Below are positions 5,201 to 20,489 of a DNA stretch of 64,000 nt, in pieces. Location of the stretch: assembly GCA_034522055.1 (NCBI GenBank), contig JAXHLS010000006.1:831643-895642 (forward strand), written 5' to 3'. This DNA is from Gammaproteobacteria bacterium (lineage in GTDB: Bacteria > Pseudomonadota > Gammaproteobacteria > JAABTG01). Made by a program: the position numbers and the translations under genes. Below the pieces are notes generated by a model, which was not told the origin of the DNA, did no database searches, and saw only the letters and a program-made list of their open reading frames with translations. Position 1 is the first letter of the stretch; the number at the start of each line of letters is the position of its first letter.

Positions 5201-5420
5201 GCACCAGGCTCTCGATGGGCACCGTCACCAGCTGCTCCACGTCCTCGGGGGAGAAGCCGGGGGCCTCGGTCTGGATCACCACCTGGGTGGGGGCGAACTC
5301 CGGGAACACGTCCAGGGCCATGCGACTGGCCGCAAACAGCGCCAGTCCCGTCACCACCAGGGCGGCCACCATGACCGTGACACGGTTGTTCAGGGACCAG
5401 CGGATGATCGCGTTAACCAT
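2283..5420 (-). CDS. Heavy-metal RND efflux permease, non-Cus type (1045 aa)
   Basis: This is an inner-membrane proton-driven pump of the RND superfamily. The N-terminus (RWSLNNRVTVM), the periplasmic porter domains and twelve membrane spans fit the CzcA/CusA family at normal length. The TM4 motif is AIGEVVDDAVIDVEN, with the paired Asp used in proton relay. The three porter-domain methionines that define Cu/Ag pumps are missing: the first site reads VTHLPGTS rather than LYMPTTLPG, and the third region reads HRMYELLSGV. It probably exports another substrate or works by another route. It lies 111 nt after its adaptor gene and overlaps the cytochrome gene. A GAGG ribosome-binding site precedes the ATG. 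Confidence 0.85.
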   Translation of the reverse strand: MVNAIIRWSLNNRVTVMVAALVVTGLALFAASRMALDVFPEFAPTQVVIQTEAPGFSPEDVEQLVTVPIESLVLGAPGIDAVRSESSIGLSRVIVVFQWGTDIYDARQIVGQRLALIQDRLPPGVQAPEAMPATSAISWLQKFALIDGRPDFRGLELRTLADWVFRYRLLAQEGVASVVSQGGDVKQYQVLVDPLKLNQFDVALTDVVAAAAGASDIRPGAFIYPGGQQELTVRGDAQVDDTTDIAQVPVTLRDGTPITVGDVAKVKVGPAIKRGDARFNGRPAVVGTVSKLYGADTVRTTEGVEETLANLRQALPEGARLVPDTFSQASFIHAAIGNMSDAMMQAAAVVATVLLLFLFRWTPTIISFIAIPLSLLAAIVVLWLFGVGLNALVLGGLVIAIGEVVDDAVIDVENVYRRLRENILAGQPLAQFKVVMAASIEIRSAVVYATLIIVVVFLPVFFLQGIEGRIFAPLAGAYIAAIVSSLVVAVTVTPVLCYLLLCCKANRIALDPSPVLVWLERHYRPLLGKALARPRVVFMGAGGLLVLALVVLPFLGRSFLPAFHEGNIVIAVTHLPGTSLKENVRTGDYIQAMLRERHPQIRTVVQRAGRSRLDEDAMPVNFSEFDITLKPGHENSPEFMAALREDLASVPGITVNVGQFIAHRMYELLSGVRSQLAVKIYGSDLDTLLELAREVRGRIDGVAGVVDLQTEQRVTVPGIDIRVDRAAAARHGLKPADISRYVENAINGVVVGQVLEEGGRSFDILVRMDEYSRDHVADLEDLPLRTPDGARVRLADVAAVVQVQQPFFVEREGGNRRATVAWNVEGRDLDGVATDVQRALADLDMPTGYTWQLGGEYEGQQRSSRTLLLFGGLAVMLVFALLVQVFRSLPLALMVFSNLPLALIGGVLVLALARVDLNVSSMVGFIALFGIATRNGILLVSRYQRMLREHPDMAMDRIVTDGAVERMAPILMTAGTAALAVLPLLFGSPVGKEMEQPLAWVLLGGLTTSTLLNLVVVPAWFHLMGQRDRDALKSEDRLLEEAYQP

Positions 5421-5531: not shown

Positions 5532-6758
5532 TCAGTGATGATCGTCCCCACCGCCCGGGCCGCCCGGGCCGCCCCCAAGGAGGCGCTTGCCTTCCAGCAA
5601 CTGGGAGCCCCCGGTGACCACGGCCTCACCGGCCGCCACACCCTCCCTCACCTGCACCCAGCCCTGGTCCCGGGCCCCCAGGTCCACGTAGCGGCGTTCG
5701 TATATATCGACATCCTTCTGGACGTAGACGTAGTGGGCACCGTCCACGGTGATGACGGCCTCGCCCGGCACCCACACCCCATCCGCCTCCGGGGTCTCCA
5801 CCAGCATCTCCAGGGGGGCGCCGAGGCCGTAGGCGGGAGGGAAGTGGTCCAATGTGACATAGAACCGGCCCCGCCCATCGTCGGGGTCCACCATGGGGTC
5901 CACCAGCACCACCTCGCCGCCGTACCACCTGATGGTCCTGCCCACCCGCATGCGGACCTTCTGGCCCACGGTGATCTCATGGAGGCGTTCGGGGGCGACC
6001 CGTCCCTCGGCCCACAGGCCGTCATCGAGCACCACCCGGGCCACCGGCGCGCCGGTGATGACGAAGGTGCTCATGCCGCGATCGCCGGCATTGATGAGGG
6101 CACCGGGCTCCACCAGCACCGCCGTGACGATGCCCGAGATGGGAGTCGTGGCCGTGAGGGTCTCCTTCACCGTGCCATCCTCCACCAGGGCCTCCACCTC
6201 GCCTTCCGTCATGCCCCACCACAGCAGGTTCTCCCGCGCGTCCTCCAGGTAGTCCGGCAGATTGCCCAAGGTGCGGATCTGCTCCAGGCGCACTTCATCC
6301 TCCATCATGGCCAGATAGCCCCGCTGGGTGAGCATGAAGTCGGGGCTGAAGACCCTCACCATGGGCTCTCCTTCCGCCACCCGCTGGCCGCGGCGGATGA
6401 ACACCTCGCGCACGGCGCCGCCGGTGTTGATGGTCACCTCCTGTTCACGATCGGGGCGCGCCGCCACCCGGCCGTCGGTGCGCAGGGTGGTGATACGATC
6501 CTGGGCGATGGCCTGCTCGGTGGTGATGAGACCGGGGTGGCCTGCCATGGCCTGGGGCAGGCCCACGTGGATGGTGCGGCGGCCCTCGCCTCCCTCGCTG
6601 CCGAAGGCACTGAGTTCGCCGTGGCCGTGGGCGGCACCGGCGACCAACAGTGCGACGACGGCCGCCAGTTGGGGGACGATGGAATGATGGATGAATTTCT
6701 TCATGGCCTGATGGATACGGGGCATAGGCGTGTCGCCGTCAGTGGTGGTGTCCGGCAT
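5532..6758 (-). CDS. RND periplasmic adaptor (HlyD/CusB-like, 408 aa)
   Basis: A membrane-fusion protein linking an RND pump to an outer-membrane channel. I chose the ATG giving MPDTTTDGDTP because GGGAGG lies 7 nt upstream; starts at 6725 or 6704 are possible. The signal segment is FIHHSIVPQLAAVVALLVAGAAHG. It is followed by the barrel-sandwich half (DGRVAARPDREQEVTINTGG), an alpha-hairpin, the second lipoyl half (TPISGIVTAVLVEPGALINAG) and a beta-barrel. The tail is Gly/Pro-rich and ends GGGDDHH, a likely metal-binding end. It overlaps the preceding adaptor gene by 20 nt and probably partners the downstream non-Cus pump. Confidence 0.85.
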   Translation of the reverse strand: MPDTTTDGDTPMPRIHQAMKKFIHHSIVPQLAAVVALLVAGAAHGHGELSAFGSEGGEGRRTIHVGLPQAMAGHPGLITTEQAIAQDRITTLRTDGRVAARPDREQEVTINTGGAVREVFIRRGQRVAEGEPMVRVFSPDFMLTQRGYLAMMEDEVRLEQIRTLGNLPDYLEDARENLLWWGMTEGEVEALVEDGTVKETLTATTPISGIVTAVLVEPGALINAGDRGMSTFVITGAPVARVVLDDGLWAEGRVAPERLHEITVGQKVRMRVGRTIRWYGGEVVLVDPMVDPDDGRGRFYVTLDHFPPAYGLGAPLEMLVETPEADGVWVPGEAVITVDGAHYVYVQKDVDIYERRYVDLGARDQGWVQVREGVAAGEAVVTGGSQLLEGKRLLGGGPGGPGGGDDHH

Positions 6759-7569
6759 GGTCATCCTCCCGGGTGGACGCGGGCAGCGGCCGGGAGGGGG
6801 TATCCCCCGGCAGGCGCACCAGCACGCGCATGCCGGGATGCAGGCCGGCTCGGTCCACCGGCCGCACCACCACCCGCTGGCGGGGCACGCCGGCGTCCGC
6901 CAGGGGCAGCACCTGTTCCACCTGGCCATCCAGCCTCCCCGCCCGGGTTTCTATGACGAGGGGCATGCCGGCGCGAAAATGCACGGCGTCGGCGGGGGGC
7001 ACCCGGGCCTCCACGAGCATCCGCCGATCATCGGCGATGCGCAGCACCGGCACCCCCACGGCGGCGAACTGGCCACTCTGCACCCCCGCGTTCACCACCT
7101 GGCCGACGCGGATGTCCACGCGGGTGATGACGCCGTCGACCGGGGCCTTCACGGGTACCGCATCCAGGGGCTCGGCGGTCTCCTCGATGCGTTCGATATC
7201 CTCTTCGCTCATGCCCCGCCACAACAGGGCCAGCTTGTTCTGGGTGACGTTCTCCTTCACCCGCGGCGTGATATCGCCGATATCCCCCAGGTTGCGATGG
7301 GTGGTGAGATAGCTCTTCTGCAGGGTGCGCAGTTCGGCACTCTCGAAGGTGAACAGGGTGTCCCCCGCCGCCACCCGGCGCCCGGGATTGAGGTCCTCCA
7401 TGTCCACGATGCGGGCGTTGGTGCGCAGGGTGACGGTGTGGATGGCCCGCGGGTCCACCACCACCTCGGCGGGGTATCGGCCCGGCTCGGCGCCGGCGCC
7501 GGCAGTGACGAGCAGCAGCCCGATCGCCAACAGCAGGCCCAGGTTGCGTCGAACATCAGGGATCTTCAT
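6739..7569 (-). CDS. Short RND periplasmic adaptor (276 aa)
   Basis: A second, compact membrane-fusion protein. It has a signal peptide (GLLLAIGLLLVTAGAGA), a first barrel-sandwich strand (DMEDLNPGRRVAAGDTLFTF), a short hairpin, and the second half (VKAPVDGVITRVDIRVGQVVNAG). A beta-barrel follows, then the His-rich end EDDHAGHHH. It is shorter than typical adaptors (350-450 aa) because the hairpin and membrane-proximal parts are reduced. It overlaps the CusA-like gene by 14 nt and the next adaptor by 20 nt. Pairs of unequal adaptors are known for some RND pumps, which use heterologous adaptors; whether this pair forms a mixed ring is inference. Confidence 0.82.
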   Translation of the reverse strand: MKIPDVRRNLGLLLAIGLLLVTAGAGAEPGRYPAEVVVDPRAIHTVTLRTNARIVDMEDLNPGRRVAAGDTLFTFESAELRTLQKSYLTTHRNLGDIGDITPRVKENVTQNKLALLWRGMSEEDIERIEETAEPLDAVPVKAPVDGVITRVDIRVGQVVNAGVQSGQFAAVGVPVLRIADDRRMLVEARVPPADAVHFRAGMPLVIETRAGRLDGQVEQVLPLADAGVPRQRVVVRPVDRAGLHPGMRVLVRLPGDTPSRPLPASTREDDHAGHHH

Positions 7570-10500
7570 GGGTCGCTCCTGGCTGCACCGGGGCCGCGCC
7601 CAGACGCCTCTGTTCGATCCAGCTGTATACCGCCGGGATGATCAGCAGCACCAGCACCAGGGAACTGGCCACGCCCCCCACCATGGGGGCGGCGATGCGC
7701 CGCATCACGTCGGCTCCCACCCCATCGGACAGCATGAGGGGCATGAGGGACAGGCCGATGGTGGCCACGGTCATGATCTTGGGCCGCAGGCGCAGCACCG
7801 CCCCTTCGTGGATGGCGTCGAACAGGTCCTGCCTGGTCCTCAGCGTGCCCTCCTGCCGGCGCCGTTTCACCGCCGTCTCGAGGTAGATGATCATCACCAC
7901 CGCGGTCTCCGCCGCCACTCCCAGGAGGGCCAGCAAGCCCACCACCACCGCCACGCTCAGGTGATAATCCAGCAGGGCCAGCAGCCACACGGCGCCGATG
8001 AGGGAGAAGGGAATGGCCACCATCACCAGCAGGGCCTTGGTCAGGCTCTGGAACACCAGATAATAGAGCACCAGGATCACCAGCAGGGTGAGGGGGATGA
8101 CGTAGGCGAAGGTGTCCCATGCCCGTTCCAGGTTTCGGTAGCTGCCGCTCCATTCGTAGTAGACCCCCTCCGGCAGCGCCACCCCATCCGAGATGGCGGC
8201 CTCGGCCGCCGCCACATAGCTGCCGGCATCCCGGCCGGCGAGGTCGATGTAGACGTAGTTCACCAGCAGGCCGTTCTCGCTCTTAACCTCGGTGGCCGCC
8301 TGGGTGACGCGGATGTCCGTCACCACCCCCAGGGGGATGTAGTCGCCGTCGCCGAAGGGCACCATCACTTCGCGCCGCAGGGCGTCGATATCGTCCCGGT
8401 GGTCGGCCTGGTAACGCACGTTGATGGGGTAGCGCTCCCTGCCCTCCACCGTCCAGCCCAGATTCGCCCCGCCCACGGCGGTGCGCAGCACCTCCTGCAC
8501 GTCCGCCACGTTGAGGCCGTAGCGGGCGGCCTGCCGGCGGTCTACGGTCACGTCCACGTAGTAGCCCCGGGTGGTGCGGTCGGCGTAGACATTCTCGCTG
8601 CCGGGCAGGTTCGCCAGAACCCCCTCCATCTGGCCGGCCACACGGTCCAGCACCTCCAGGTCGCTGCCGTACACCTTGATGCCCAGGGGCGTGCGAATAC
8701 CGGTGGTGAGCATGTCAATGCGCCCGCGGATGGGCATGGTCCAGCCGCTCACCAGGCCCGGGATGCTCACCGCGGCGTCCATCTCCCGCACCAGTTCGTT
8801 CGCCGTGAGGCCGGGGCGCCACTGGTCCCGGGGCTTCAGGGTGATGACGGTCTCGATCATGGACAGGGGCGCCGGGTCGGTGGCGGAATCGGCACGCCCG
8901 GCCTTCCCGAACACCGTCTCCACCTCGGGGATCCTCTTGAGTTCCCGGTCCTGGTTCTGCATCACCCGGCCGATCTCGCTCACGGACACCCCGGGCAGGG
9001 TGGTGGGCATGTACATCAACGAGCCCTCGTAGAGTGGCGGCATGAACTCCTTGCCGAGGCCGTTGAACACCGGCACCGTCACCAGCCCGAGGGCCACGAA
9101 GAGGCCCACCGTGGCCAGCCGCAGGCGCAGGGTAACCTCGAGGATGGGCCGGTAGAGGCCGATGAGCGCGGTGCTGACGGGGTTGGACTGTTCGTTGAAG
9201 ATGCGGCCACGGACGAAGTACATCATCAGGGCCGGTATGAGGGTGATGGACAGCAGGGCCGCCGCACCCATGGCGAAGGTCTTGGTCCACACCAGAGGCG
9301 TGAACAGGCGGCCCTCCTCCCCCGTCAGCATGAGCAGGGGCAGGAAGGACAGGGTGAGCACCACCAGGGAGACGAAGATAGGGGTGGCCACCTCCTTCAT
9401 GCCGGCCATCACCGCCGCCGCGTGCTCGGCGGGGTCCGGGTCCCGGCCCAGGCGCTCCACATGCTTGTGGGCGTTCTCCACCATGACGATGGCGGCGTCC
9501 ACCATGGCCCCGATGGCGATGGCGATGCCACCCAGGGACATGATGTTCATGGTGATGCCCATCCAGCGGGTGAAGATGAAGGCGATGAGGATGGCCACCG
9601 GCAGGGTGAGGATGATCACCAGGGTGCTGCGCAGATGCCACAGGAACAGCAGCACGATGGCCGCCACCACCAGGGATTCGTACCACAGGGCATGGACCAG
9701 GGTGGCGACGCTGGCGTCGATGAGGGGTGCGCGGTCGTAGACGGGCACCACCCCCACCCCCGCCGGCAGCCCCTTCTTCGCCTCGCCGAGAGCCGCCTTG
9801 ACGTCCCGGATGACCCGGGAGGCGTTGGCGCCGTGCTGCATCACCACGATGCCGCCCGCCACCTGGCCCTCGCCGTTCAGTTCCGCGATGCCTCGCCGCA
9901 CGTCGGTGCCGAAGTGGACGCGCCCGAGTTGACCGATGGTCACCGGCACCCCCTGTTCCCCCATCTTCACCGGCACCTGCTCCAGGTCGGCCACGCTGGT
10001 GACGTAGCCGAGACCGCGGATCAGGTATTCGGCGCCGCTGTGCTCGATGAGCCGGCCACCCTCGTCGCGGTTGCTGCGCTCCACCGCCGCCACCACGTCA
10101 TCGAAGGGGATGCGGTAGGCCCGTAGTCGGGCGGGGTCCACCTCCACCTGGTACTGGCGCACGTATCCCCCCACGGAGGCCACCTCGGACACCCCCGGCA
10201 CGGCCTCCAGGGCGTAGCGCAGATACCAGTCCTGGAGGCTGCGCAGTTCCGCCAGGTCATGGCGCGCCGAGCGCAGGGCATACTGATACACCCAGCCGAC
10301 ACCGGTGGCGTCCGGCCCCAGGCTGACGTCTGCCGCCGCCGGCAGCTTGCCGCGCACCTGGTCCAGGTATTCCAGCACCCGGCTGCGAGCCCAATAGATA
10401 TCCGTGCCCTCCTCGAACAGGACGTAGATGAGGGAATAGCCGAAGGCGGAGTAGCCCCGAACATCGGCGGCCCCGGGCACGTGGAGCATGGTGGTCAGCA

Positions 10501-10702
10501 GGGGATAGGTGATCTGGTCCTCGATGACCCGGGGCGACTGGCCGTCCCACTTGGAATAGATGATCACCTGGGTGTCCGAGACGTCGGGCACCGCATCCAG
10601 GGCCGTGTGCTTGACCGACCAGTAGCCCGCGCCCGCCAGCACCAGGGCCACCAGGATCACCAGCACGCGCTGGCGGGCACAGTATTCGAGGATGGCATTC
10701 AT
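7556..10702 (-). CDS. cusA: CusA-type Cu(I)/Ag(I) RND efflux permease (1048 aa)
   Basis: An inner-membrane RND pump that moves monovalent copper or silver from the periplasm to an outer-membrane channel, driven by protons. The TM4 motif AIGAMVDAAIVMVEN (D402) is the Cus signature. The three methionines of the E. coli CusA metal site (M573, M623, M672) have counterparts here at M565 (SLMYMPTTLP), M615 (PLSMIETVITLKP) and M664 (RIDMLTTGI), all at a constant offset of 8. Length matches the family. It shares one base with the end of the upstream CusB-like adaptor gene and overlaps the following adaptor by 14 nt, so the block is one transcription unit. Substrate assignment is well supported by these residues. 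Confidence 0.93.
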   Translation of the reverse strand: MNAILEYCARQRVLVILVALVLAGAGYWSVKHTALDAVPDVSDTQVIIYSKWDGQSPRVIEDQITYPLLTTMLHVPGAADVRGYSAFGYSLIYVLFEEGTDIYWARSRVLEYLDQVRGKLPAAADVSLGPDATGVGWVYQYALRSARHDLAELRSLQDWYLRYALEAVPGVSEVASVGGYVRQYQVEVDPARLRAYRIPFDDVVAAVERSNRDEGGRLIEHSGAEYLIRGLGYVTSVADLEQVPVKMGEQGVPVTIGQLGRVHFGTDVRRGIAELNGEGQVAGGIVVMQHGANASRVIRDVKAALGEAKKGLPAGVGVVPVYDRAPLIDASVATLVHALWYESLVVAAIVLLFLWHLRSTLVIILTLPVAILIAFIFTRWMGITMNIMSLGGIAIAIGAMVDAAIVMVENAHKHVERLGRDPDPAEHAAAVMAGMKEVATPIFVSLVVLTLSFLPLLMLTGEEGRLFTPLVWTKTFAMGAAALLSITLIPALMMYFVRGRIFNEQSNPVSTALIGLYRPILEVTLRLRLATVGLFVALGLVTVPVFNGLGKEFMPPLYEGSLMYMPTTLPGVSVSEIGRVMQNQDRELKRIPEVETVFGKAGRADSATDPAPLSMIETVITLKPRDQWRPGLTANELVREMDAAVSIPGLVSGWTMPIRGRIDMLTTGIRTPLGIKVYGSDLEVLDRVAGQMEGVLANLPGSENVYADRTTRGYYVDVTVDRRQAARYGLNVADVQEVLRTAVGGANLGWTVEGRERYPINVRYQADHRDDIDALRREVMVPFGDGDYIPLGVVTDIRVTQAATEVKSENGLLVNYVYIDLAGRDAGSYVAAAEAAISDGVALPEGVYYEWSGSYRNLERAWDTFAYVIPLTLLVILVLYYLVFQSLTKALLVMVAIPFSLIGAVWLLALLDYHLSVAVVVGLLALLGVAAETAVVMIIYLETAVKRRRQEGTLRTRQDLFDAIHEGAVLRLRPKIMTVATIGLSLMPLMLSDGVGADVMRRIAAPMVGGVASSLVLVLLIIPAVYSWIEQRRLGAAPVQPGATHEDP

Positions 10703-12066
10703 CAGTGGTCATGCCCCCCTCGGGCGCCGCCACCGCGGCTGGTGCGCAGGGCCACCTCGGCCTGGAGGAAGAACTGCCCCTGCACCACCACCTCCTCGCC
10801 CGGATGCAGGCCGCCGTAGACCGGCACCTCGCGGCCTGCCGGGGCCCCCAACTCCACCGGCCGCGCGGTATAGGCATCATCCGCCGACTTCACGAACACG
10901 AACTGGCCATCGCCGTCGTCGATGACGGCGCTGGCCGGGATGGCCAGCACCGTGTCCACCTGCGGGGCGCCTCCGCCACCCGTCTCATCGCCGTCCCCCG
11001 CATCGAGGGTCCCCACCAGGTCGCGGTGGGGTGGTGCCGGCGTACCGGGCACCGGCAGCATGAAGATCACGTCGGCATACATGCCCGGCACCATGGCCAG
11101 GTCCTCGTTGGGCAGCACGATGCGGGCGATGCGGGTGCGACGCCCCTCGTCCACCACCGGGTAGACGAAACTCACCGGGGCCTCGAACATCCGGGCCGGT
11201 CGGCCGTGGACGCGCACGCGGGCCATGTCCCCGACTTTCACCCGGTCCAGGTCCGGGCCCAGCAGCTCCGCCTGCACCCACACCGTGGACAGCTCGGCCA
11301 CCTTGACGATGGTCTCGCCGATGGCCGTGAACTGACCGCCTTGCACCCCGGCGTTCACCAGGGTGCCATGGTTGACGTTCTGCTCCACCACCAGGCCGCT
11401 CACCGGGGTGCGGATGGCGAAGTGCTTCATGAGTTCGCCGCTGCTGGCGACGCGCTTGATATCGTCTTCGCCGAGGCCGCGCCACAGCAGGGTCACGGTG
11501 GAGGTGGCATTGATGTGGGGCATGTCGCTGCCCAGGCGCTCCACCCAGCCCTGGGACCGCATGGCCTGTGCATAGTCCTGCACCACTCGCATGAGTTCGG
11601 GGCTCTTGAGGTCGATGAGCACGTCCCCCGCCTCCACCAGGTCACCCTCGAAGAAGTGGTAGTAGTTCTCCACTTCGCCGTTGACCCGGGCGGTCACCTC
11701 CACCAGATTGCGCTCGTCGTAGGTAATCTCCGCCACCGTCTTGAGGCGCCACAGCAGTGGCTTCTCCCGGGCCGTCACGGTACGCACGTCCAGCACTCGC
11801 TGCTGCTGGGGCGAGAGCCTGACACGTCCCGCCTCGCCCACGTGGCGCTCCATGGGGATAAGGCCCATGCCGCAGATGGGACAGTTGCCGGGCTTGTCGC
11901 TGCGCACGTGGGGGTGCATGGGACAGGTGTAGGTGGGGTCCATGTGTTTGCGGGCATGCTCCAGGGCGCTCTCCGCCCAGGCCCCGGGCACCGTCAGGAC
12001 GAGAATCGCCAGCAGCCAGGCCACCGCGCCTGCGGCCACGTGCATCCTGTGGGCCACGAGGATCAT
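10702..12066 (-). CDS. cusB: CusB-like periplasmic adaptor with N-terminal heavy-metal-binding domain (454 aa)
   Basis: A membrane-fusion protein for the adjacent CusA-type pump. After a signal peptide (residues 10-31) comes a small heavy-metal-binding domain, with YTCPMHP at 46-52 and NCPICGMG at 61-68; its Cys and Met residues are candidate Cu(I) ligands. The usual barrel-sandwich, hairpin and beta-barrel parts follow (EVTARVNGEVENYYHFFEGD; IRTPVSGLVVEQNVNHG). The C-terminus ends GGGARGGHDH. It overlaps both neighbours: the 563-aa adaptor by 4 nt and cusA by 1 nt. E. coli CusB binds metal through N-terminal methionines; here the extra domain probably does this or works together with them. 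Confidence 0.9.
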   Translation of the reverse strand: MILVAHRMHVAAGAVAWLLAILVLTVPGAWAESALEHARKHMDPTYTCPMHPHVRSDKPGNCPICGMGLIPMERHVGEAGRVRLSPQQQRVLDVRTVTAREKPLLWRLKTVAEITYDERNLVEVTARVNGEVENYYHFFEGDLVEAGDVLIDLKSPELMRVVQDYAQAMRSQGWVERLGSDMPHINATSTVTLLWRGLGEDDIKRVASSGELMKHFAIRTPVSGLVVEQNVNHGTLVNAGVQGGQFTAIGETIVKVAELSTVWVQAELLGPDLDRVKVGDMARVRVHGRPARMFEAPVSFVYPVVDEGRRTRIARIVLPNEDLAMVPGMYADVIFMLPVPGTPAPPHRDLVGTLDAGDGDETGGGGAPQVDTVLAIPASAVIDDGDGQFVFVKSADDAYTARPVELGAPAGREVPVYGGLHPGEEVVVQGQFFLQAEVALRTSRGGGARGGHDH

Positions 12067-13754
12067 TGGTCACCTCCGGCCTCGGCCCACAGCAGTTCAC
12101 GATCCGGATCCACCATCATGCGGGCGCGCTCCACCACCCGGTCGCCGGCGGCGAGGCCCGCCAGCACGGCCACCCGGCCATGGGCGCGCGCCCCCGTCAC
12201 CACCCGGGTCAGCCGATAGCTCCCGGCACCGGCCTCCACCAGCACATAGCTGTGGCCCTCGGCATACAGCAGGGCGGAACGGGGTACCCGCAGCATCTCC
12301 GGCAGCGCCACGGTGAGGGACAGGGCGGCGTACATGCCGGGCAGCAGCCGCAGGTCCGGGTTGTCCAGCACCACCCGCAGCCGCGCGCGCCGGGTATCAG
12401 GACGGATCTGCGCGAACACATGGTCCACCCGCCCCACGAAGCGCGGATCCCCTGCCAGTTCGCGGATCACCACCTCTACCGGCTGTCCCTTCTCCAGGGC
12501 ACCGAAGGGCAAGAGAAAGGGCACCTCCTCCAGGGGCAGTTCCACCGTCACCCACACCCGGGACAGGTCCGCCACCCGCGCCACCGTCTCCCCCACCAGG
12601 GCCCAGTTCTCCATCTCCCGGGCCCCGGCGTTGATGAGGGAGCCGCGGTCGGCACGCCGCGCCAGCACGTAGCCACTGCGGGGGGCGGTAATGACGTAGT
12701 CGTCCAGTACCACCTTCGACCGTTCCAGCAGTTCGATATCGTCCGCGTCCATGCCCCACCAACGCAGATTGGATCGGCTGTCCTCCATGAACTGGCCCGG
12801 CGCGAAAGAATAGGTGAGGCGGTCCTCGTTGCTGATGTTGGCGAGATGGTTGAACTGGGCCAGCAGGCGCTCCGGGGCGAACATGTTCATGAGGGGCTGG
12901 CCTTTCTCGATGATCATGCCCTCGAAGAAATAGAGGTCCCGCACGAGACCGCTGGCGGTGATGTTCACGTCATGGACCGCGGTGGGGTCGTAGTCCACGG
13001 TGCCCACCCCCTCCAGCACGACGTTGCCCCCCGCCGCTTCGACGGTGACGGTGGGCGTGCCCCCGTGGTGGCGGATGACGAGGCGCTCGGCGGACTCCGC
13101 CGCCAGCAGGTCCGCGGGCGCCAGCAGCCGCGTGCGGTCGGCCACGTAATCGGGGTCCCGCTCCCGGGAGCGGGCCTGATCCACGCGCTCGGCCCGTGCC
13201 TCCAGGCGAGCCTTGATCTCCGGAGAAAGCTCTTCGCTGACCGTAGGGTCCACCACCGCCGTGGATGTGGGGGAGCGCACCGCCGGCTTATCCGCCCGGG
13301 CATAGGGCTCCGGGCCCTGTTCTGCCGGGACAGCCGCGGCGTGATGGAGCGGTTCGTCGCCAGCGGCTTCACCGGAGGAGGTAATCGCGGCCGCTTTCGG
13401 TTCGGCGCGGGTGACGGCCGCTCCGCCATCCGGCGGGAGCGGCCGCCGCGGGCGCCCATCAGCCACGGCTGATGAGGGGCGGCGCTCCATGGCCGCCGAG
13501 TCATGGCCCGGCACCAGGATGGTGGGAGGGACGTTGAGCCGGATGGTCCCGCGATCCGCGCGACGACCATCTCCTGCGGGGCGGAACGTCTCTATGGGAT
13601 CGGTACCCGTATCCGAACCGTCCGCAGCCGGCGTCGTGGGCGCTACGGCGGCAGGCGGGTCCATCCTCGCGGGACCTTGGTCGTCGCGCCCGCACAAGGT
13701 CAACAACGCGGCCACGGAGACCACGACGATGAGAGGAAAGATGAACCCGCGCAT
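12063..13754 (-). CDS. Large RND periplasmic adaptor with disordered N-terminal extension (563 aa)
   Basis: The N-terminal segment GFIFPLIVVVSVAALLTLCG is a signal or anchor. Residues about 25-230 are Pro/Ala/Arg-rich and probably disordered. They include PYARADKPAVRSPT, a weak echo of the VMPYARLTNPGAKGPP unit in the cytochrome linker. From about residue 235 a normal adaptor begins (GNVVLEGVGTVDYD; PRSGYVLARRADRGSLINAG), with beta-barrel and C-terminal domains. It overlaps the CusB-like gene by 4 nt, so this is the first gene of the adaptor-pump block, 134 nt after the thiocyanate-dehydrogenase-like gene. It may serve as a second CusB-type partner for CusA. Confidence 0.82.
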   Translation of the reverse strand: MRGFIFPLIVVVSVAALLTLCGRDDQGPARMDPPAAVAPTTPAADGSDTGTDPIETFRPAGDGRRADRGTIRLNVPPTILVPGHDSAAMERRPSSAVADGRPRRPLPPDGGAAVTRAEPKAAAITSSGEAAGDEPLHHAAAVPAEQGPEPYARADKPAVRSPTSTAVVDPTVSEELSPEIKARLEARAERVDQARSRERDPDYVADRTRLLAPADLLAAESAERLVIRHHGGTPTVTVEAAGGNVVLEGVGTVDYDPTAVHDVNITASGLVRDLYFFEGMIIEKGQPLMNMFAPERLLAQFNHLANISNEDRLTYSFAPGQFMEDSRSNLRWWGMDADDIELLERSKVVLDDYVITAPRSGYVLARRADRGSLINAGAREMENWALVGETVARVADLSRVWVTVELPLEEVPFLLPFGALEKGQPVEVVIRELAGDPRFVGRVDHVFAQIRPDTRRARLRVVLDNPDLRLLPGMYAALSLTVALPEMLRVPRSALLYAEGHSYVLVEAGAGSYRLTRVVTGARAHGRVAVLAGLAAGDRVVERARMMVDPDRELLWAEAGGDQ

Positions 13755-13888: not shown

Positions 13889-15367
13889 TCACACCGAAAT
13901 GGAGCGACTCGCCTTGGCCATCTGCCAGTCGGCGGGTATGACCACGTGGTCGTGATGGCCGTTGGGCGACGGCATACGGGCCACGATCTCCAGGGAGTCC
14001 GCGTTGATGATCACCAGGCCGGACTGGCCGCCCTGGTGCCCGCTGTACACCGCGGAGATGTGCTCGTCGTCATGGAGCACGTCGACGGTATGGGGATCGG
14101 GGCCGATGTCAATCTTGGCATCCAGGGTCCAGTTGCCGGGGGTGCAGCGCACGATATAGCCGCGGTTGGGACGGCGCGCCCAGGCGGTGAAGAAGATGTA
14201 ACGGGAGTCCTGCATGTTGCCGGTGTGGAACGGCAGGTGGGTCCGTCCGAAGCCCTCGATGTAGGCGATCTTCTTCCACCTCCTGGGGTCGTGGTGGGAA
14301 CTGTCCACCACGCCCACGTTGTTCTGCAGCACGTTGTTGCAGCAGAACAGGTACTTGCCGTTGGTGAGGAAGCCGGCCTCGTGCATGGGCGACAGCACGC
14401 TCGGCACCGAGAAGGCCCAGGTGTAGCCCGTCTGGCGCACCAGGGGGAAATGGTCCGGGGCACCCTTGGGCGTGGCGATGACGGTGATGGGCTCCCATGT
14501 CTCGGTATCCACGATGACCACCAGGCCGAGGCGGCGGATGAGAATGGTGGCCAGGGGCAACTCGGGATGCCACACCAGGGTATCGATGAAGCAGGCGGTG
14601 GGATCGGCGGGCATGAGCTCTTCCCCCATGAGGGCTTCATGGGTGATCTTCATGCCCCGCAGGCCCTGGTAGTCGAACTTGCCGGTAGCCGGGTCCGGGA
14701 AGACGCGGCTGCAGTTCAGGGTCTTGGCCACCGGGTCGTAATCGAACTTGTAGGACACGACGATCTTCGGCTGGTCGTCGGTGGTGGTCACCAGCACCAG
14801 GTCCTTCTGGCCGTCGGCGAAGGACACCAGACCCTGGTTGGGCCCGACTCCCAGGGCGGCGTGGACCCCCAGCCCCATGCCCGTGGTGTCGGCGATGTCG
14901 TTCACCAGGATGATGCGGTTCTGCTCGCCGCGCCCGTCGTAGCGTGCCTTCCACATGCCCATGTGGCCGCGCTCGCGCCACTCGGGGGAGTTCTCGTTGA
15001 TGTACGGCGACCCCGGGCGCTGCATGGTGAAGAAGAAATCGAAGGTCTGCCGGGGGTTCTTCGACGGCATCGCGCAGATGTGATGGGGTATCGGGGCGTC
15101 GATACCCGTGAGCATCATGGGCAGCCACGCCAGGGTCTCGGAGGTCCCCAGGTCCACCACCTGCACCAGGCCGGAATACTTGCCGGGTTTCACTACCACG
15201 TTGCCGGCGAAGCGCGCGAGATTGGAATTGTTATAGGATTCGGCGGGGGCCAGATTGGCCGCCGATACGTGGCGGGGCACGGCCCCCATGCCGGCCATGG
15301 AGGCGGCACCCGCCATGCCGGCCGCGCCCGCGCCCTTCAGGAACCTGCGTCGATCGATGTTCATCAT
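13889..15367 (-). CDS. Tat-exported beta-propeller copper oxidoreductase, probable thiocyanate dehydrogenase (492 aa)
   Basis: The twin-arginine signal (DRRRFLKGAGAAG) is followed by blade-like repeats typical of the nitrous-oxide-reductase-like seven-bladed propeller. Candidate copper ligands are H96, H169, H329, H381, H426 and H472. As I remember the Thioalkalivibrio thiocyanate dehydrogenase, its ligands are His135, 206, 381, 437, 482 and 528. Spacings 437-482-528 (45, 46) are matched exactly by 381-426-472, and the others are close. K63 and E249/E250 sit near where its catalytic Lys and Glu would fall. That enzyme converts thiocyanate to cyanate and sulfur in the periplasm. The neighbours (copper pumps, cytochrome, thioredoxin-like protein, SoxXA) fit. 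GGGGAG precedes the start; a second ATG follows directly. The alternative is another propeller copper enzyme or an uncharacterised relative. Confidence 0.65.
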   Translation of the reverse strand: MMNIDRRRFLKGAGAAGMAGAASMAGMGAVPRHVSAANLAPAESYNNSNLARFAGNVVVKPGKYSGLVQVVDLGTSETLAWLPMMLTGIDAPIPHHICAMPSKNPRQTFDFFFTMQRPGSPYINENSPEWRERGHMGMWKARYDGRGEQNRIILVNDIADTTGMGLGVHAALGVGPNQGLVSFADGQKDLVLVTTTDDQPKIVVSYKFDYDPVAKTLNCSRVFPDPATGKFDYQGLRGMKITHEALMGEELMPADPTACFIDTLVWHPELPLATILIRRLGLVVIVDTETWEPITVIATPKGAPDHFPLVRQTGYTWAFSVPSVLSPMHEAGFLTNGKYLFCCNNVLQNNVGVVDSSHHDPRRWKKIAYIEGFGRTHLPFHTGNMQDSRYIFFTAWARRPNRGYIVRCTPGNWTLDAKIDIGPDPHTVDVLHDDEHISAVYSGHQGGQSGLVIINADSLEIVARMPSPNGHHDHVVIPADWQMAKASRSISV

Positions 15368-15418: not shown

Positions 15419-16102
15419 TTACTTCGATTCCTCGATGATCTCCTGGATATCCCGCAACCGCTCCTGGGATGTCCATAACTGAGGCCCCGCGTAGACCCGT
15501 TTCACCACCCCTCTCTTGTCCAGCAAGAAGGTGGTGGGGGCGTTGCGCAGCCCGAAGGTCTGGACGGTGTAACTGTGGGTATCCGAGTAGATGGGATAGT
15601 TGGCACCGGCCTCCCGGGCCACCAGCCGCAGATTGCGCAGCACGTCGGACTCCGCACTTTCCGGGTTGAGCTTGCCACCGACGTTGCCGATATTGATGCC
15701 TATGACCTGCACGTTGGCATTGGTCTTGGACAGTTCCTGCAGGCTCTTCATCTCGTCCACCGAGCGGGGGCTGAACAACAGAAAAAAATTGAGGACCACC
15801 GGACGGTCGCCATCGAGGATGCGGCCGGTAGTAGTGGGCTTGCCATCCAGGGTCTCGATGGGGATATCCTTGGGGATCATCGCGCCCTTGCCCAGGGGGG
15901 CGATGAACACGTCGCCTCCCACCTCGTCCGCGGTGGGGAACTCCCCTCCTTTTTTTTCGTGGGGCGCGGAATAGCCGCCCCCCCCTTGGCCGGAGGCAGG
16001 GCGTTCCTTCAGGCAGGGATTCTGGGCGCCAAGGGCCGTGCCCGCGAGACCGAATACCGCAACCGCAGCCACGACCACGGAAAGAGGCTTATAGCTCCAC
16101 AT
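15419..16102 (-). CDS. Exported thioredoxin-fold protein without CxxC (227 aa)
   Basis: The signal peptide ends at ALGA (residue 26). The mature protein then begins with QNPCLKERP, whose C30 is the only cysteine in the protein. Residues 70-227 form a TlpA/peroxiredoxin-like thioredoxin fold: VVLNFFLLFSPRSVDEM, then a cis-Pro turn (NAPTTFLLDKRG). The usual CxxC is replaced by FSPRS (110-114), so it cannot be an ordinary disulfide reductase. A copper-chaperone, scaffold or redox-dead role is more likely. It is the first gene of the unit with the copper enzyme (51 nt apart) and has a strong AGGAGG site 9 nt before ATG. The NPCLK motif recurs in the cytochrome encoded downstream. Confidence 0.8.
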   Translation of the reverse strand: MWSYKPLSVVVAAVAVFGLAGTALGAQNPCLKERPASGQGGGGYSAPHEKKGGEFPTADEVGGDVFIAPLGKGAMIPKDIPIETLDGKPTTTGRILDGDRPVVLNFFLLFSPRSVDEMKSLQELSKTNANVQVIGINIGNVGGKLNPESAESDVLRNLRLVAREAGANYPIYSDTHSYTVQTFGLRNAPTTFLLDKRGVVKRVYAGPQLWTSQERLRDIQEIIEESK

Positions 16103-16754
16103 CTCGACATTCCTCCTGTAGAAAATCAGTAATTATTAAAATTAACTGGCCACCGGGATGGTCTCGAACCAGTGGTCACCCCCGTGCATGCGCACCGGGT
16201 AAGAATTTCGTCAAATCCGCACGTATCACCGGCCGCAGGGTTGATCCCCCACGTTATGTTTTTAGCAGGCACGCCCGCGAAAACCGGCAAACGTCTCCTG
16301 AATATACGGTTTAAAATCAGCGCGAAACAAGCAGACCCACCGTGGTGCGGGCTCCGATGTGGATGCACCGCCCCGACTCCGCGTGGGCGGGCGCAGACTG
16401 TGGAGCGTGCCGGTGATGATGGGCACGGTGCCGTGCGCTGAACTCTCTGTTCACTGAAGCCTTGTAATGGCGGCTTCTTGCTCAAAAGACTATCCCGGAT
16501 TGCATTCCGAACTCAATGCTTTTTGCCGGCGAAACAGAGCCGGGAAAAGATTACCACCCGTGCGTCCGCTCTGCTGAAGCCGAAACGGTGGATCCGCTGC
16601 GCCTTTTCGAACTGCCACTCCTCCCTGACCTTCTCCCTTTTCGCGTCACTCGCGTCTTTCGCGGTTACGCTTTTTGTAGGGCGGGATTCATCCCGACATC
16701 CTCCCCGCCCCGCGCACCCGCGCCGGGCCGGGCCGGGCCGGAATCGGAGTGGTC
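16103..16754. promoter_or_regulatory. 652-nt leader of the copper-enzyme operon, with a dispersed repeat
   Basis: No gene is visible here. On the minus strand an AT-rich stretch at about 16118-16142 contains TTAATTTTAATAATTACTG, a plausible -10 region just upstream of the thioredoxin-fold gene. Just upstream of it (about 16147-16179) is an imperfect dyad, TGGCCACCGG...CCAGTGGTCA, a possible operator. The distal part holds one copy of the 131-bp dispersed repeat (16545-16675) and a GCGGGATTCATCCCGAC palindrome (16680-16696). No factor can be named from sequence. Confidence 0.4.
16545..16675 (+). repeat. 131-bp dispersed repeat, copy 1
   Basis: Runs from AAAAGATTACCACCCG to GCGGTTACGCTTTT and is nearly identical, in the same orientation, to 60359-60489. 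Differences are a few substitutions and a one-base length change near the end. Its last 45 bp also occur inverted at about 53901-53948, and resemble the units of the 17.2-17.8 kb array. Confidence 0.85.
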
Positions 16755-17198
16755 TCAGACGAGCACTCCGGACAACCACACGTCGTGCTCGTTGCACATA
16801 CTGAGGGCATAGAGGGGACCGCCGTATTCGGTCACCTTAAAATCCGAGACCGGCGCCTCGTCCCGCTCGGGATCGAACATGTGCTCGTCCATGACCTCGA
16901 AGGCCCAGTTGAGCAACTGGTGTTTGATGATGTAATGCTCGTATCCCCGCATCTCATGGGCCGTCAGCACCCGCACGTCGAAATCGTTGCCGTTCGTGCG
17001 ACGGACATCGATCATGGGCACATGCCCACCGGCCTTATCGGGGAAACGCCCCGGCGATTCCCGGGTGAGATACACACCGCCCGCCATGCGGGATTGCAGA
17101 TTGACCGTACAGGGATCGGCGGCTCTGGCGAGCCTTGGCGCCACGAGCCCGGCCGGCAGGGCAAACCCCGCCAGGCGCACCAGATCACGTCGTTTCAT
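16755..17198 (-). CDS. Tat-exported superoxide reductase-like (desulfoferrodoxin/neelaredoxin family) protein (147 aa)
   Basis: A twin-arginine-type signal (KRRDLVRLAGFALPAG) is followed by a small beta-sandwich domain. The iron-centre ligands of superoxide reductases are all in place: H59 (GGHVP), H81 (TAHEM), H88 (EHYI), then C135 and H138 (SMCNEHDVW). There is no N-terminal rubredoxin-like desulforedoxin domain, so it is of the one-iron class. Such enzymes normally reduce superoxide in the cytoplasm of anaerobes; a periplasmic version is less usual. GGAGA lies upstream of the ATG. It sits between the sox genes and the copper-enzyme operon, separated from each by long spacers, so it is probably transcribed alone. 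A different role for the mononuclear site cannot be excluded. Confidence 0.72.
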   Translation of the reverse strand: MKRRDLVRLAGFALPAGLVAPRLARAADPCTVNLQSRMAGGVYLTRESPGRFPDKAGGHVPMIDVRRTNGNDFDVRVLTAHEMRGYEHYIIKHQLLNWAFEVMDEHMFDPERDEAPVSDFKVTEYGGPLYALSMCNEHDVWLSGVLV

Positions 17199-17224
17199 CG
17201 TTCTTCTCCGGATTCAAGGGCAAA

Positions 17225-17765
17225 AATGCAACCACGAAACACGCGAAAGGTGCGAAAAGAAAGCAGCGACGTACTATCGGGCCTACGCGGTTGCAACTTT
17301 CAGGCCTGTCGCGTTTTTCATGGTTCAAAAAAGAAAATGCAACCGCGAAAGACGCGAAATACGCGAAGAGAATCACCGGGGATCCCTTGAATCTGTTTGG
17401 TTGCAATTTTCGCGCATTTCGCGTCTTTCGTAGTTTAAAAAAATAAAATGCAACCGCGAAAGACGCGAAATACGCGAAAAGAGAATCACCGGAGATCCCC
17501 CCGAACCGGCCTGGTTTAAGCTTTAGCGACTCTCGCATTTTTCGTGGTTTAAGAAAAAAATCTAACCGCGAAAAACGCGAAATGCGCGAAAAATGAAATA
17601 ACCGGGGCTTCCCTGAACCTAACTGGTTGAAACTTTCCCGTATTTCGCGTCTTTCAGGGTAAGAAAATAACAATATAACCGCGAAAGTTGCAAAGAGGGA
17701 ACTGCCCACTAAACCCCCAAGTGTTTCCTGAAAGTTTCGCGCATTTCGCGTCTTTCGTAGTTAAT
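17225..17765. repeat. Tandem array of five ~112-bp palindromic units
   Basis: Units begin with AACC[AG]CGAAA at 17230, 17341, 17452, 17564 and 17677, giving a period of 111-113 bp. Within each unit the left arm AACCGCGAAAGACGCGAAA is answered by a right arm TTTCGCGTCTTTCGTAGTT, so each can fold into a long hairpin. Middles diverge more than the arms. The array fills the 651-nt space between the superoxide-reductase-like gene and the sox-coupled gene and carries no credible ORF. Confidence 0.85.
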
Positions 17766-17849
17766 ATGCTCTTTCACCCCTCGAATAATTCCCCCGGGCG
17801 GTTATCCCACGATCCGGGGCACGGCGGCTGGCAGGTATTCTGTCGTGTC

Positions 17850-18608
17850 TCAGTCTCCCGCCACCACGTCCACCGCCCCCAGCCTTGCGAAGTGTGCGCC
17901 CCTCGCCTGCTCGCCCTTGAGCCCGACGGCACCCGTGGCGAGATAGCCTCCGGGCACGCGATACTCGGTGGTCAGCGCCAGGGCACCGTTGATGGAAAGG
18001 CTGTGGAAGGGATTCACGTGGCGCAGATAGACATAGAGCCACTCGCCGGAGGGCAGGACGACTTCCTCCGTCGCCAGTACCTCCCGCATACCGTCCTTCA
18101 CCTTCACCAGGGATACGCTGCCCGCAGCGGGGTCCATCTCCATGCACAGGTAATCCCCCTTCTTCGACGCGCGGTACACGAGGCCGGCCACGCCGGTACC
18201 GAGGCGCACGCTGGAGGCCGCCACGACGTTGGCGAAGCGCTGTCCGCTGAAGCGCAACACGCACCCGGACTCGGGCTCGCCGCGATCCCCGGGAGGATCG
18301 ATAGCGGATGCCCCACCCTCGTCGACGGCTCCAGCCATGGAACCATCTCCGGAGTCGTAGACCGCGCCGCCCAGGGCCTGTTCGGCATCCATATCCTTTC
18401 CGTCCATATCTTCTGGCACCGGCTCGATATTCAGGGTCAGGGCCACGACGTCGTCCGTACACGCCTCGATACACCACGCGCCACCGCCGAGGGGCGTGGC
18501 GAGAGCGGCCAGCCTCTCGTCATCGAGCAGGGCGAACTCGCATTCGATACGCGCCCACTGGATACCCCCGGTGTCGGCATCCGCCTGGGGAGACATATCC
18601 ACCGTCAC
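17850..18608 (-). CDS. Sox-coupled hypothetical protein with a lectin-like beta-sandwich half (252 aa)
   Basis: I do not recognise a named family. The start ATG overlaps the soxA stop (ATGA), so it is translated with soxXA. No signal peptide is visible, although its partners are periplasmic. Residues 1-105 are acidic, with a low-complexity linker rich in Asp and Gly (about 66-108). Residues 110-250 look like a jelly-roll/LamG or DUF1080-type domain: RFANVVAASSVRLG, GLVYRASKKGDYLCMEM, GEWLYVYLRHVN, LSINGALALTTEYRV, GAVGLKGEQARGAHF. It is not SoxK or SoxL by size or motif. Possible roles are assembly or binding of SoxXA, or an unrelated carbohydrate-binding function. Confidence 0.65.
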   Translation of the reverse strand: MTVDMSPQADADTGGIQWARIECEFALLDDERLAALATPLGGGAWCIEACTDDVVALTLNIEPVPEDMDGKDMDAEQALGGAVYDSGDGSMAGAVDEGGASAIDPPGDRGEPESGCVLRFSGQRFANVVAASSVRLGTGVAGLVYRASKKGDYLCMEMDPAAGSVSLVKVKDGMREVLATEEVVLPSGEWLYVYLRHVNPFHSLSINGALALTTEYRVPGGYLATGAVGLKGEQARGAHFARLGAVDVVAGD

Positions 18609-19447
18609 TTGCGGGAACTCGGTCCGTTCAGGGGCACGCCGTTACTCATGAAGGTCATGAAGTATTCCAGATTACGGAAGGTCTCGGACTGCTCGTCGAG
18701 TACCCGTCCACGCAACATCTCCAGGCACCCGGCGAAACGCCGGTGCAGCGTGCCCATCTCTCCCCAGTCGCCGCGGTAGACCGGCCAGTGGCTCGTGTGG
18801 CCCAGGCCGGGACTCAGGACATCGGTTCGCAGCTTCGAACCCGTATAAGCCTTGTGGCAATGGGCGCAGGAGAACTGATACTGGCCCTGGCGCTTATACC
18901 AGTATTCCTTGCCCGCTTCGTAGGCAGCGAGGGCATTCGGGTCGCATGTAGGCGATACGACATCGGTCAGCTCGCCCCGGGATTCGAAGGCCATATAGGC
19001 CATGATGTGAGTGATCTCACCCTTGCCGTAGGGCAGCGCGGGTTCACCGATCTTCGCCCGGCATTCGTTGATGGCCAGGGGCAGGGTGATTACCATTTTC
19101 TTGTCGGTGTCGTAATAGGGGAAGTACTGCACCACGCCCGGGTTGCCGTCGAAACAGTCGGCGTAGGTGTTGCCATTGGCGAAGGGGGTATTCCACGCCT
19201 CCCTGCCCTCGTCGACCATGGGCTCATAGGGTGGGAACTCCTCGGTGGCCAGCCAGTTCTCGCGCATGTCGTCGTTGATGGCATAGGCGCCGTTGCCGAA
19301 CTCCGCCATGGACACATCGGGAAAACGACTCTTGAAGAAGGCCTGGAACTCCTTCAGATCCTCCTGGGGGCCCGCCAGCGCAGGACCCGCGGCCGCCATC
19401 GATGCGGCCAGGAAAAGAAACCTGATACGGTCGGTGAGGTCACTCAT
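18605..19447 (-). CDS. soxA: SoxA, c-type cytochrome subunit of thiosulfate-oxidising SoxXA (280 aa)
   Basis: SoxA with SoxX attaches thiosulfate to the SoxYZ carrier in the periplasm. The signal peptide spans residues 1-26. One haem site is present, C194-A-H-C-H198, followed by GTLHRRFAGC, whose C241 is the conserved cysteine haem ligand (persulfide-modified in characterised homologues). The region of the first haem in dihaem SoxA is NTYADCFDGNPGVVQ and has no CxxCH; C98 and C129 probably form a disulfide. It is therefore the monohaem type. GGAG lies 7 nt before this ATG; the longer frame upstream covers 18-bp tandem repeats and is rejected. The stop overlaps the downstream hypothetical gene. 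Confidence 0.95.
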   Translation of the reverse strand: MSDLTDRIRFLFLAASMAAAGPALAGPQEDLKEFQAFFKSRFPDVSMAEFGNGAYAINDDMRENWLATEEFPPYEPMVDEGREAWNTPFANGNTYADCFDGNPGVVQYFPYYDTDKKMVITLPLAINECRAKIGEPALPYGKGEITHIMAYMAFESRGELTDVVSPTCDPNALAAYEAGKEYWYKRQGQYQFSCAHCHKAYTGSKLRTDVLSPGLGHTSHWPVYRGDWGEMGTLHRRFAGCLEMLRGRVLDEQSETFRNLEYFMTFMSNGVPLNGPSSRK

Positions 19448-19687
19448 GTCTAATCTCCAATGGCGATCTGGTCCAATGGCGAGCTGGTCCAATGGCGAGC
19501 CGGCGTGGTACGCGTCCGGGCTCGCGGATGCGCCGTGGACCTTGGGCCTCGTCATTCGGCGTGTCCCGTGGTCCAGGGATGTACCGTCATTTCCGGCCAC
19601 ATAAGTGGCTGATGAGGAAGCAAAGCGGATTCACATCTTTCGCTCCGCGTGCGTTGAGAGAGCCGGGGTGGCTATGTCAGCGCCTGC
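19448..19687. repeat. soxX-soxA spacer with an 18-bp tandem repeat
   Basis: Between soxX and soxA, close to the soxA start, the unit TCCAATGGCGA(G/T)C occurs three times at an 18-bp period (about 19456-19503). The repeat lies in the soxA leader and may affect mRNA structure. No gene is seen. Confidence 0.6.
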
Positions 19688-20053
19688 TTAAAGGGACCAG
19701 ATGAATTCGGTGACCTTGTCTATCTCGCTCTCCTGGAGCAGGTAGGTGCGGCCATAGGGGGGCATGATGGAGTCCGGGTTCTTCTCGTGGGCGTCCCAGA
19801 TCTGGGCGCGGAGTTCGGACTTGTCGGGATAGCGGGCCTGCATCATCACCAGGGGTGGCCCGATGTTGCCGGGGCTCTCGCCCCCTTCGATTACGTGGCA
19901 GGCCAGGCAGTTGCCCTTTGACCTTTCGAAGGAGAGTTGCTTGCCCTGTTCCAGGACGACGGCGCGGTCTTGGGCCACTGCGGGCAGGGCCGGCAGCAAC
20001 GGCAGAAGTGCGACCGGTCCCACGACCAGTCTGGTGAGGTATCTGAATTTCAT
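19688..20053 (-). CDS. soxX: SoxX, monohaem cytochrome subunit of SoxXA (121 aa)
   Basis: Forms the SoxXA complex with the downstream SoxA. The signal peptide is residues 1-27 (LLPALPAVA). The haem site C49-L-A-C-H53 is followed by GGESPGNIGPPLVMMQARYPDK and the axial M97 in NPDSIMPPYG. The C-terminus IDKVTEFIWSL is the SoxX signature. Length matches the short monohaem type. GAGAGGAG precedes this ATG by 3 nt; the longer frame upstream gives non-homologous sequence and is rejected. The other sox genes (soxB, soxYZ) are not in the window. soxX leads a unit soxX-soxA-hypothetical. Confidence 0.95.
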   Translation of the reverse strand: MKFRYLTRLVVGPVALLPLLPALPAVAQDRAVVLEQGKQLSFERSKGNCLACHVIEGGESPGNIGPPLVMMQARYPDKSELRAQIWDAHEKNPDSIMPPYGRTYLLQESEIDKVTEFIWSL

Positions 20054-20489
20054 AAACTCCTCTCTGGAAGTGTCATTACGGTGTGGACCACCGTTTATCA
20101 ACCGTCGGTCTCGACCCGCTGCGGGCCGGACCCCTGACTTATGGTTATTATTGGTTATGACATATCGGGTTATGGCATATGGGGCTATGGCATCCGGAAA
20201 CCGTTCCTGGCCCATCCGCTATCGCTGCCGCCATAATCGGTGAGAACCTTCGGCCTCGAGGCCCTCTCATCAATCCGCCGGGCGCCCGCCCGACACGGAG
20301 CCGGAGTCCCTTCACCGGCTCCCCGTGGCCGGCGAATCCTCCGATCCCGTGACATCAACTATGACAATACCGCCGTCCCCTGGCAAGCGCCTCCTGGCGG
20401 GCCCGCCATGGCATGGGCGCTACTACCATTCCCTATTCACCATTCACTATTCACTATTCACCGATCCCATCGCCGCCACCCCGCCCCCC
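20054..20489. repeat. 436-nt spacer with a heptamer array
   Basis: No gene is visible. At 20421-20462 is an array of CCATTCA/CTATTCA heptamers, the complement of the arrays at 36607-36764. The rest is ordinary spacer that includes the soxX promoter region and the region downstream of ftsB; TTATGGTTATTATTGG (20139-20154) is locally AT-rich and could be part of the soxX promoter. Confidence 0.55.

Follow-up and report, generated by a model that had tools for sequence, protein, structure and literature searches.

The 492-amino acid protein specified by nucleotides 13889–15367 of the window, by which we mean the whole 64,000-nucleotide stretch of gammaproteobacterial DNA analyzed here, is almost certainly a thiocyanate dehydrogenase (TcDH), and judged by its sequence it falls as an early branch within the already published neutrophile group of these enzymes. 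Thiocyanate is a pollutant of mining and coking, and TcDH is a known copper enzyme through which sulfur bacteria make use of it. We consider it highly probable that the gene product is a periplasmic member of the neutrophile group (EC 1.8.2.7) functioning by the mechanism set out below, making the gene a new lineage in a known thiocyanate-removal route. Of interest are the strict pairing of TcDH with a thioredoxin-fold protein across this group, and the unexplained inactivity of an isolated relative. The gene and its neighbours are:

604–2286, minus strand: large single-haem c-type cytochrome (Cytochrom_C, 1.6e-8)
2283–5420, minus strand: CusA/CzcA-family RND metal pump 2 (TIGR00914, 786 bits)
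5532–6929, minus strand: HlyD/CusB-like adaptor (Pfam; the called start is probably too far upstream)
6739–7569, minus strand: HlyD/CusB-like adaptor (Pfam)
7556–10702, minus strand: CusA/CzcA-family RND metal pump 1 (TIGR00914, 1086 bits)
10702–12066, minus strand: CusB-type membrane-fusion protein 2 with a heavy-metal-binding domain (domain searches)
12063–13754, minus strand: CusB-type membrane-fusion protein 1 (HlyD_D23, RND_mfp and CusB matches)
13889–15367, minus strand: TcDH gene, 492 amino acids, Tat-exported seven-bladed propeller (homology, active-site alignment, fold model)
15419–16102, minus strand: exported thioredoxin-fold protein without CxxC, 227 amino acids, directly upstream of TcDH (Pfam AhpC-TSA/Redoxin; FPTADEVGG motif), hereafter the redoxin
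16755–17198, minus strand: desulfoferrodoxin/superoxide-reductase-like protein with a Tat-like signal (PF01880, 1.1e-7)
17850–18608, minus strand: protein of no recognized family, 252 amino acids (no Pfam, NCBIfam or PHROGs match)
18605–19600, minus strand: SoxA (TIGR04484, 209 bits; 4-base overlap with the next gene)
19688–20215, minus strand: SoxX (TIGR04485, 88 bits; the likely start is an internal Met near 20053)

A phmmer search of the PDB with the 492-amino acid protein returned nine distinct TcDH sequences (E 2e-69 to 1.3e-66), after which nothing scored below E 0.6. All significant matches are thus to TcDH and far above chance, as the first-pass annotation had suspected. Against characterized TcDHs the matches reach E 2e-69 and 9e-69 over 435–485 residues, and the protein shares 34–35% identity with the enzymes of T. 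paradoxus (5F75) and Pelomicrobium methylotrophicum (8Q9X); that identity to the structurally characterized enzymes reaches only 35% counts against the assignment. The published active-site set of TcDH (K103, H135, H136, Q156, H206, E288, D314, H381, H437, H482, H528, D529 and R544; PMC6504805 Fig. 4) is retained at all 13 positions, as K63, H95, H96, Q116, H169, E244, D262, H329, H381, H426, H472, D473 and R488; copper-ligand details were taken from PMC6504805 and from PDB titles. In the alignment with 5F75 and 8Q9X the T. paradoxus histidines 135, 136, 206, 381, 437, 482 and 528 correspond to residues 95, 96, 169, 329, 381, 426 and 472, respectively. The six histidines earlier proposed as ligands all belong to the active site, with one correction at the first position: H135 is matched by H95, while H96 aligns with the active-site residue H136. 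The spacing of 45 and 46 residues noted for the last three (437-482-528) is real and falls on 381-426-472; since the histidines correspond one by one, it reflects true alignment rather than coincidence. The protein had also been described as short, which it is, mostly on account of the leader (the T. paradoxus preprotein has 548 residues and the Pelomicrobium chain 489) and of two loop deletions of approximately 10 and 8 residues.

The twin-arginine signal is recognized by both PF10518 and TIGR01409 above their cut-offs. The first 37 residues, which constitute this leader, share 73% identity with the leader of an unrelated small Cys-rich protein at another place in the genome (L002 1501–1611; G000:C6:328921–329031), suggesting that the leader was copied between genes. 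That locus was considered as a second TcDH of the genome and rejected, the match being only the common Tat leader on an unrelated protein.

An AlphaFold2 model built from 31 aligned sequences (pLDDT 85.6, pTM 0.86) is poorly predicted only in the leader (residues 1–47). Its top Foldseek and VIA-align matches are all TcDHs (TM 0.85–0.90, Z approximately 56, 1.9 Å over 439 residues), and it superposes on the seven-bladed TcDH crystal structures. Other propellers, including nitrous oxide reductase, score far lower (Z 28–33). The latter shares the seven-bladed propeller (Z approximately 29), but has only 14–16% structural identity, its CuA domain would not fit in 492 amino acids, and it is absent from the PDB sequence matches up to E 10. 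Homology, residue conservation and fold superposition all lead to TcDH and to no unrelated family. Conservation and the 1.9 Å superposition also support the prediction that the copper-site histidines lie in the propeller channel.

Relatives were gathered from 84,980 genomes (80 loci kept) and by class-wide searches, and a tree of 85 proteins was made by quick search. Set I comprises proteins of Thioalkalivibrio, Pelomicrobium, Sulfuritalea and Nitrospirota. Set II, the neutrophile group (n=33, SH-aLRT 100), contains the window protein and those of Thiohalobacter, Guyparkeria, Thiobacillus, Paracoccus thiocyanatus, Afipia and Rhodoplanes; its named members include Thiohalobacter thiocyanaticus, Guyparkeria SCN-R1, P. 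thiocyanatus and Afipia of thiocyanate reactors. The branch is known from the thiocyanate-oxidizing Thiohalobacter and Guyparkeria (PMC6504805) and, as “thiocyanate desulfurase”, from thiocyanate-reactor Afipia (PMC8061750). Together with its congener L018 (97% identity) and L008 (67%) the window protein forms an early branch of set II, with moderate support: the trio has an SH-aLRT of 94, the remainder of the set 82. Members outside the window genus are 54–66% identical to it. The whole active site is kept in sets I and II. No relatives were found on viral contigs, and on plasmids they occur in two Methylocella records only, at 30% identity. In Guyparkeria (L020 12260–12610) a TcDH fragment, in a 117-amino acid frame, lies beside the intact gene; such a fragment was reported earlier, there placed upstream (PMC6504805). 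The TcDH of Paracoccus sp. S-4012 (L046 9859–11318) is split across two frames of 319 and 258 amino acids, through a frameshift or an assembly error.

Set III (n=40) consists of alphaproteobacterial proteins of Methylocystis, Reyranella, Ancylobacter and others, with Gln at the H482 position. This is the site mutated to Gln in PDB entry 6SJI and, by alignment, in 8YU5 and 8YU6 (PDB titles). Some 40 alphaproteobacterial homologues, Methylocella among them, carry naturally at a copper ligand the residue that is artificial in 6SJI (L005, L052, L053, L055–L069, L071–L074, L076–L078, L080–L085, L088–L097); their copper site, or their function, may be a different one.

A hallmark of neutrophile TcDH loci is a CxxC-less thioredoxin-fold gene just upstream, with CusA/CusB-type genes nearby (PMC6504805). 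The redoxin gene lies directly upstream of, and on the same strand as, the TcDH gene in all 31 testable set II loci, the other two being cut at 102 and 307 bases. Among the loci sampled from sets I and III, none showed it beside TcDH at the threshold used. Within the class, the TcDH search and the redoxin profile picked out the identical six of 369 genomes (five genera) and none besides. The loci of Thiohalobacter thiocyanaticus and Guyparkeria sp. SCN-R1 (PMC6504805), whose TcDHs fall in the same tree group with 57–58% identity and the same active site, share this upstream redoxin and nearby CusA/CusB. They differ in having a sigma-54 regulator and a GAF kinase, whereas in the window, whose TcDH belongs to an early offshoot, SoxXA, the 252-amino acid protein and the superoxide-reductase-like gene lie upstream, and the Cus genes downstream. 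The putative thiocyanate desulfurase of Afipia from thiocyanate bioreactors (PMC8061750) is a 489-amino acid group member (L027, L029; approximately 59% identity) also accompanied by redoxin and Cus genes, but it comes from an alphaproteobacterial host and has no SoxXA within 10 kb. The enzymes of T. paradoxus and Pelomicrobium, for all their low identity, resemble that of the window in fold, Tat export and the 13 active-site residues. The neighbours of Thioalkalivibrio TcDH are copCD, ABC and fcc genes (PMC5328954), those in the window Cus and redoxin genes.

It had been proposed that the protein might be a new branch acting on selenocyanate, cyanide or another sulfur anion. However, this branch has been described before, none of the catalytic residues is lost, and we find no feature which indicates another anion. 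A TcDH-fold copper enzyme which moved to such a substrate, or to polythionate, in the early branch of the window genus and L008 might be argued from the divergence of the trio before the known thiocyanate users of the group, from the loop deletions relative to the T. paradoxus and Pelomicrobium enzymes, and from F380, conserved in the trio where other set II members have L or M. Against this, the T. paradoxus enzyme, an authentic TcDH, likewise has Phe at this position (F436), the redoxin–TcDH pairing and the Cus genes are the same as elsewhere in the group, and the genome has a cyanase. Because the active site is unchanged and the locus is of the same type, we regard a change of substrate as very unlikely; the idea has no positive support, though the sequence by itself leaves it some room.

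The preferred reading, oxidation of thiocyanate, agrees with the rest of the genome, which contains one TcDH, one cyanase, SoxB (on another contig) and DsrA. A search for the alpha subunit of nitrile hydratase-type thiocyanate hydrolase was negative in this genome and positive in the control, Thiobacillus thioparus. Cyanase, SoxB and DsrA without a detectable thiocyanate hydrolase are as expected of a thiocyanate oxidizer using the cyanate pathway, and the gene set fits conversion of thiocyanate to cyanate and sulfur, and then to ammonia and sulfate. We infer the substrate, the products and the copper count from these comparisons. The enzyme would be exported folded through the Tat system, and within the propeller channel H95, H169, H329, H381, H426 and H472 would hold the copper, three ions being expected of a TcDH. 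Thiocyanate would there be oxidized to cyanate and elemental sulfur, with cytochrome c as the acceptor expected of such an enzyme, the cyanate passing to the genome's cyanase and the sulfur to the Sox/rDsr systems. The Cus-type genes could provide copper supply or detoxification, and the adjoining redoxin might be an assembly or product-handling factor.

An enrichment of Thiohalobacter FOKN1 degrades thiocyanate, accumulates cyanate and has abundant TcDH and no thiocyanate hydrolase, while against this TcDH isolated from it failed to oxidize thiocyanate (PMC6934394). Cyanate as the product is also called into question by the enzyme of strain THI201, which is reported to be a near relative of the set II protein of Afipia (PMC8061750) and was filed as a solo-subunit nitrile hydratase (PMC7193024). 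Hydrolysis to COS and ammonia in the manner of this single-subunit enzyme, as classified, could draw on that relationship and on the inactive FOKN1 protein, but is scarcely credible given a fold and copper site of the oxidoreductase type, the lack of any resemblance to nitrile hydratase in the PDB sequence and fold matches, no nitrile hydratase alpha domain (PF02979) in the Pfam search of the 492-amino acid protein, the cyanate accumulated by the FOKN1 cultures and the cyanase in the genome.

The thioredoxin-fold protein of neutrophile TcDH loci has been called a “putative zero-valent sulfur acceptor” (PMC6504805). Its thioredoxin domain has no cysteine in any set II locus, nor has the mature part in nearly all members; the window genus alone has one, in an N-terminal extension. 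A cysteine-based acceptor role is consequently unlikely, a persulfide carrier is disfavoured for the same reason, and cysteine chemistry can hardly account for the published part in sulfur uptake. The N-terminal FPTADEVGG-like motif is conserved. We infer that the redoxin is an assembly or protein–protein factor. Rather tentatively, copper loading or catalysis in the neutrophile TcDHs might depend on this CxxC-less partner, perhaps with SoxXA or another dedicated cytochrome in place of CytC552; such a need, if true, would account for the inactivity of the TcDH isolated from Thiohalobacter.

The setting of copper-handling and sulfur-oxidation genes noted in the first-pass annotation is borne out, with CusB-, CusA- and HlyD-type genes downstream of TcDH, and SoxX and SoxA upstream. 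Both Sox genes occur within approximately 10 kb of TcDH in 15 of 33 set II loci; SoxXA was on this account rejected as a constant component, and as the loci are mostly from Thiobacillaceae they perhaps represent three or four independent cases. In L013, which represents the closest genus apart from that of the window, a relative of the 252-amino acid protein adjoins the redoxin. Among the loci examined the superoxide-reductase-like gene stands between SoxXA and TcDH in the window genus only. The intergenic regions 16530–16700 and 17200–17790 contain a CGCGAAA-rich repeat element of approximately 160 bp, of which the genome has about 44 longer copies (84–98% identity); there is also a local array with approximately 110-bp spacing upstream of the superoxide-reductase-like gene. 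A promoter scan was negative.

In T. paradoxus the electrons have been proposed to leave TcDH via Y164 to CytC552 (PMC9456337). The equivalent residue is N124 in the window protein, and set II has N throughout except for D in one member, a difference that also counts against the assignment. With Y164 replaced, the exit route or the partner should differ in set II, so that electrons would leave neutrophile TcDHs otherwise than in the crystallized enzymes. The leads in the window are SoxXA and the 604–2286 cytochrome, which has a long low-complexity N-terminal extension with a His-rich stretch and is a candidate acceptor by analogy with the His-rich tails of CytC552 (PMC9456337). Lastly, this cytochrome contains repeated PCIKQSP/PCLKGPP segments, and a similar segment, NPCLKERP, follows the signal peptide of the redoxin (15419–16102).
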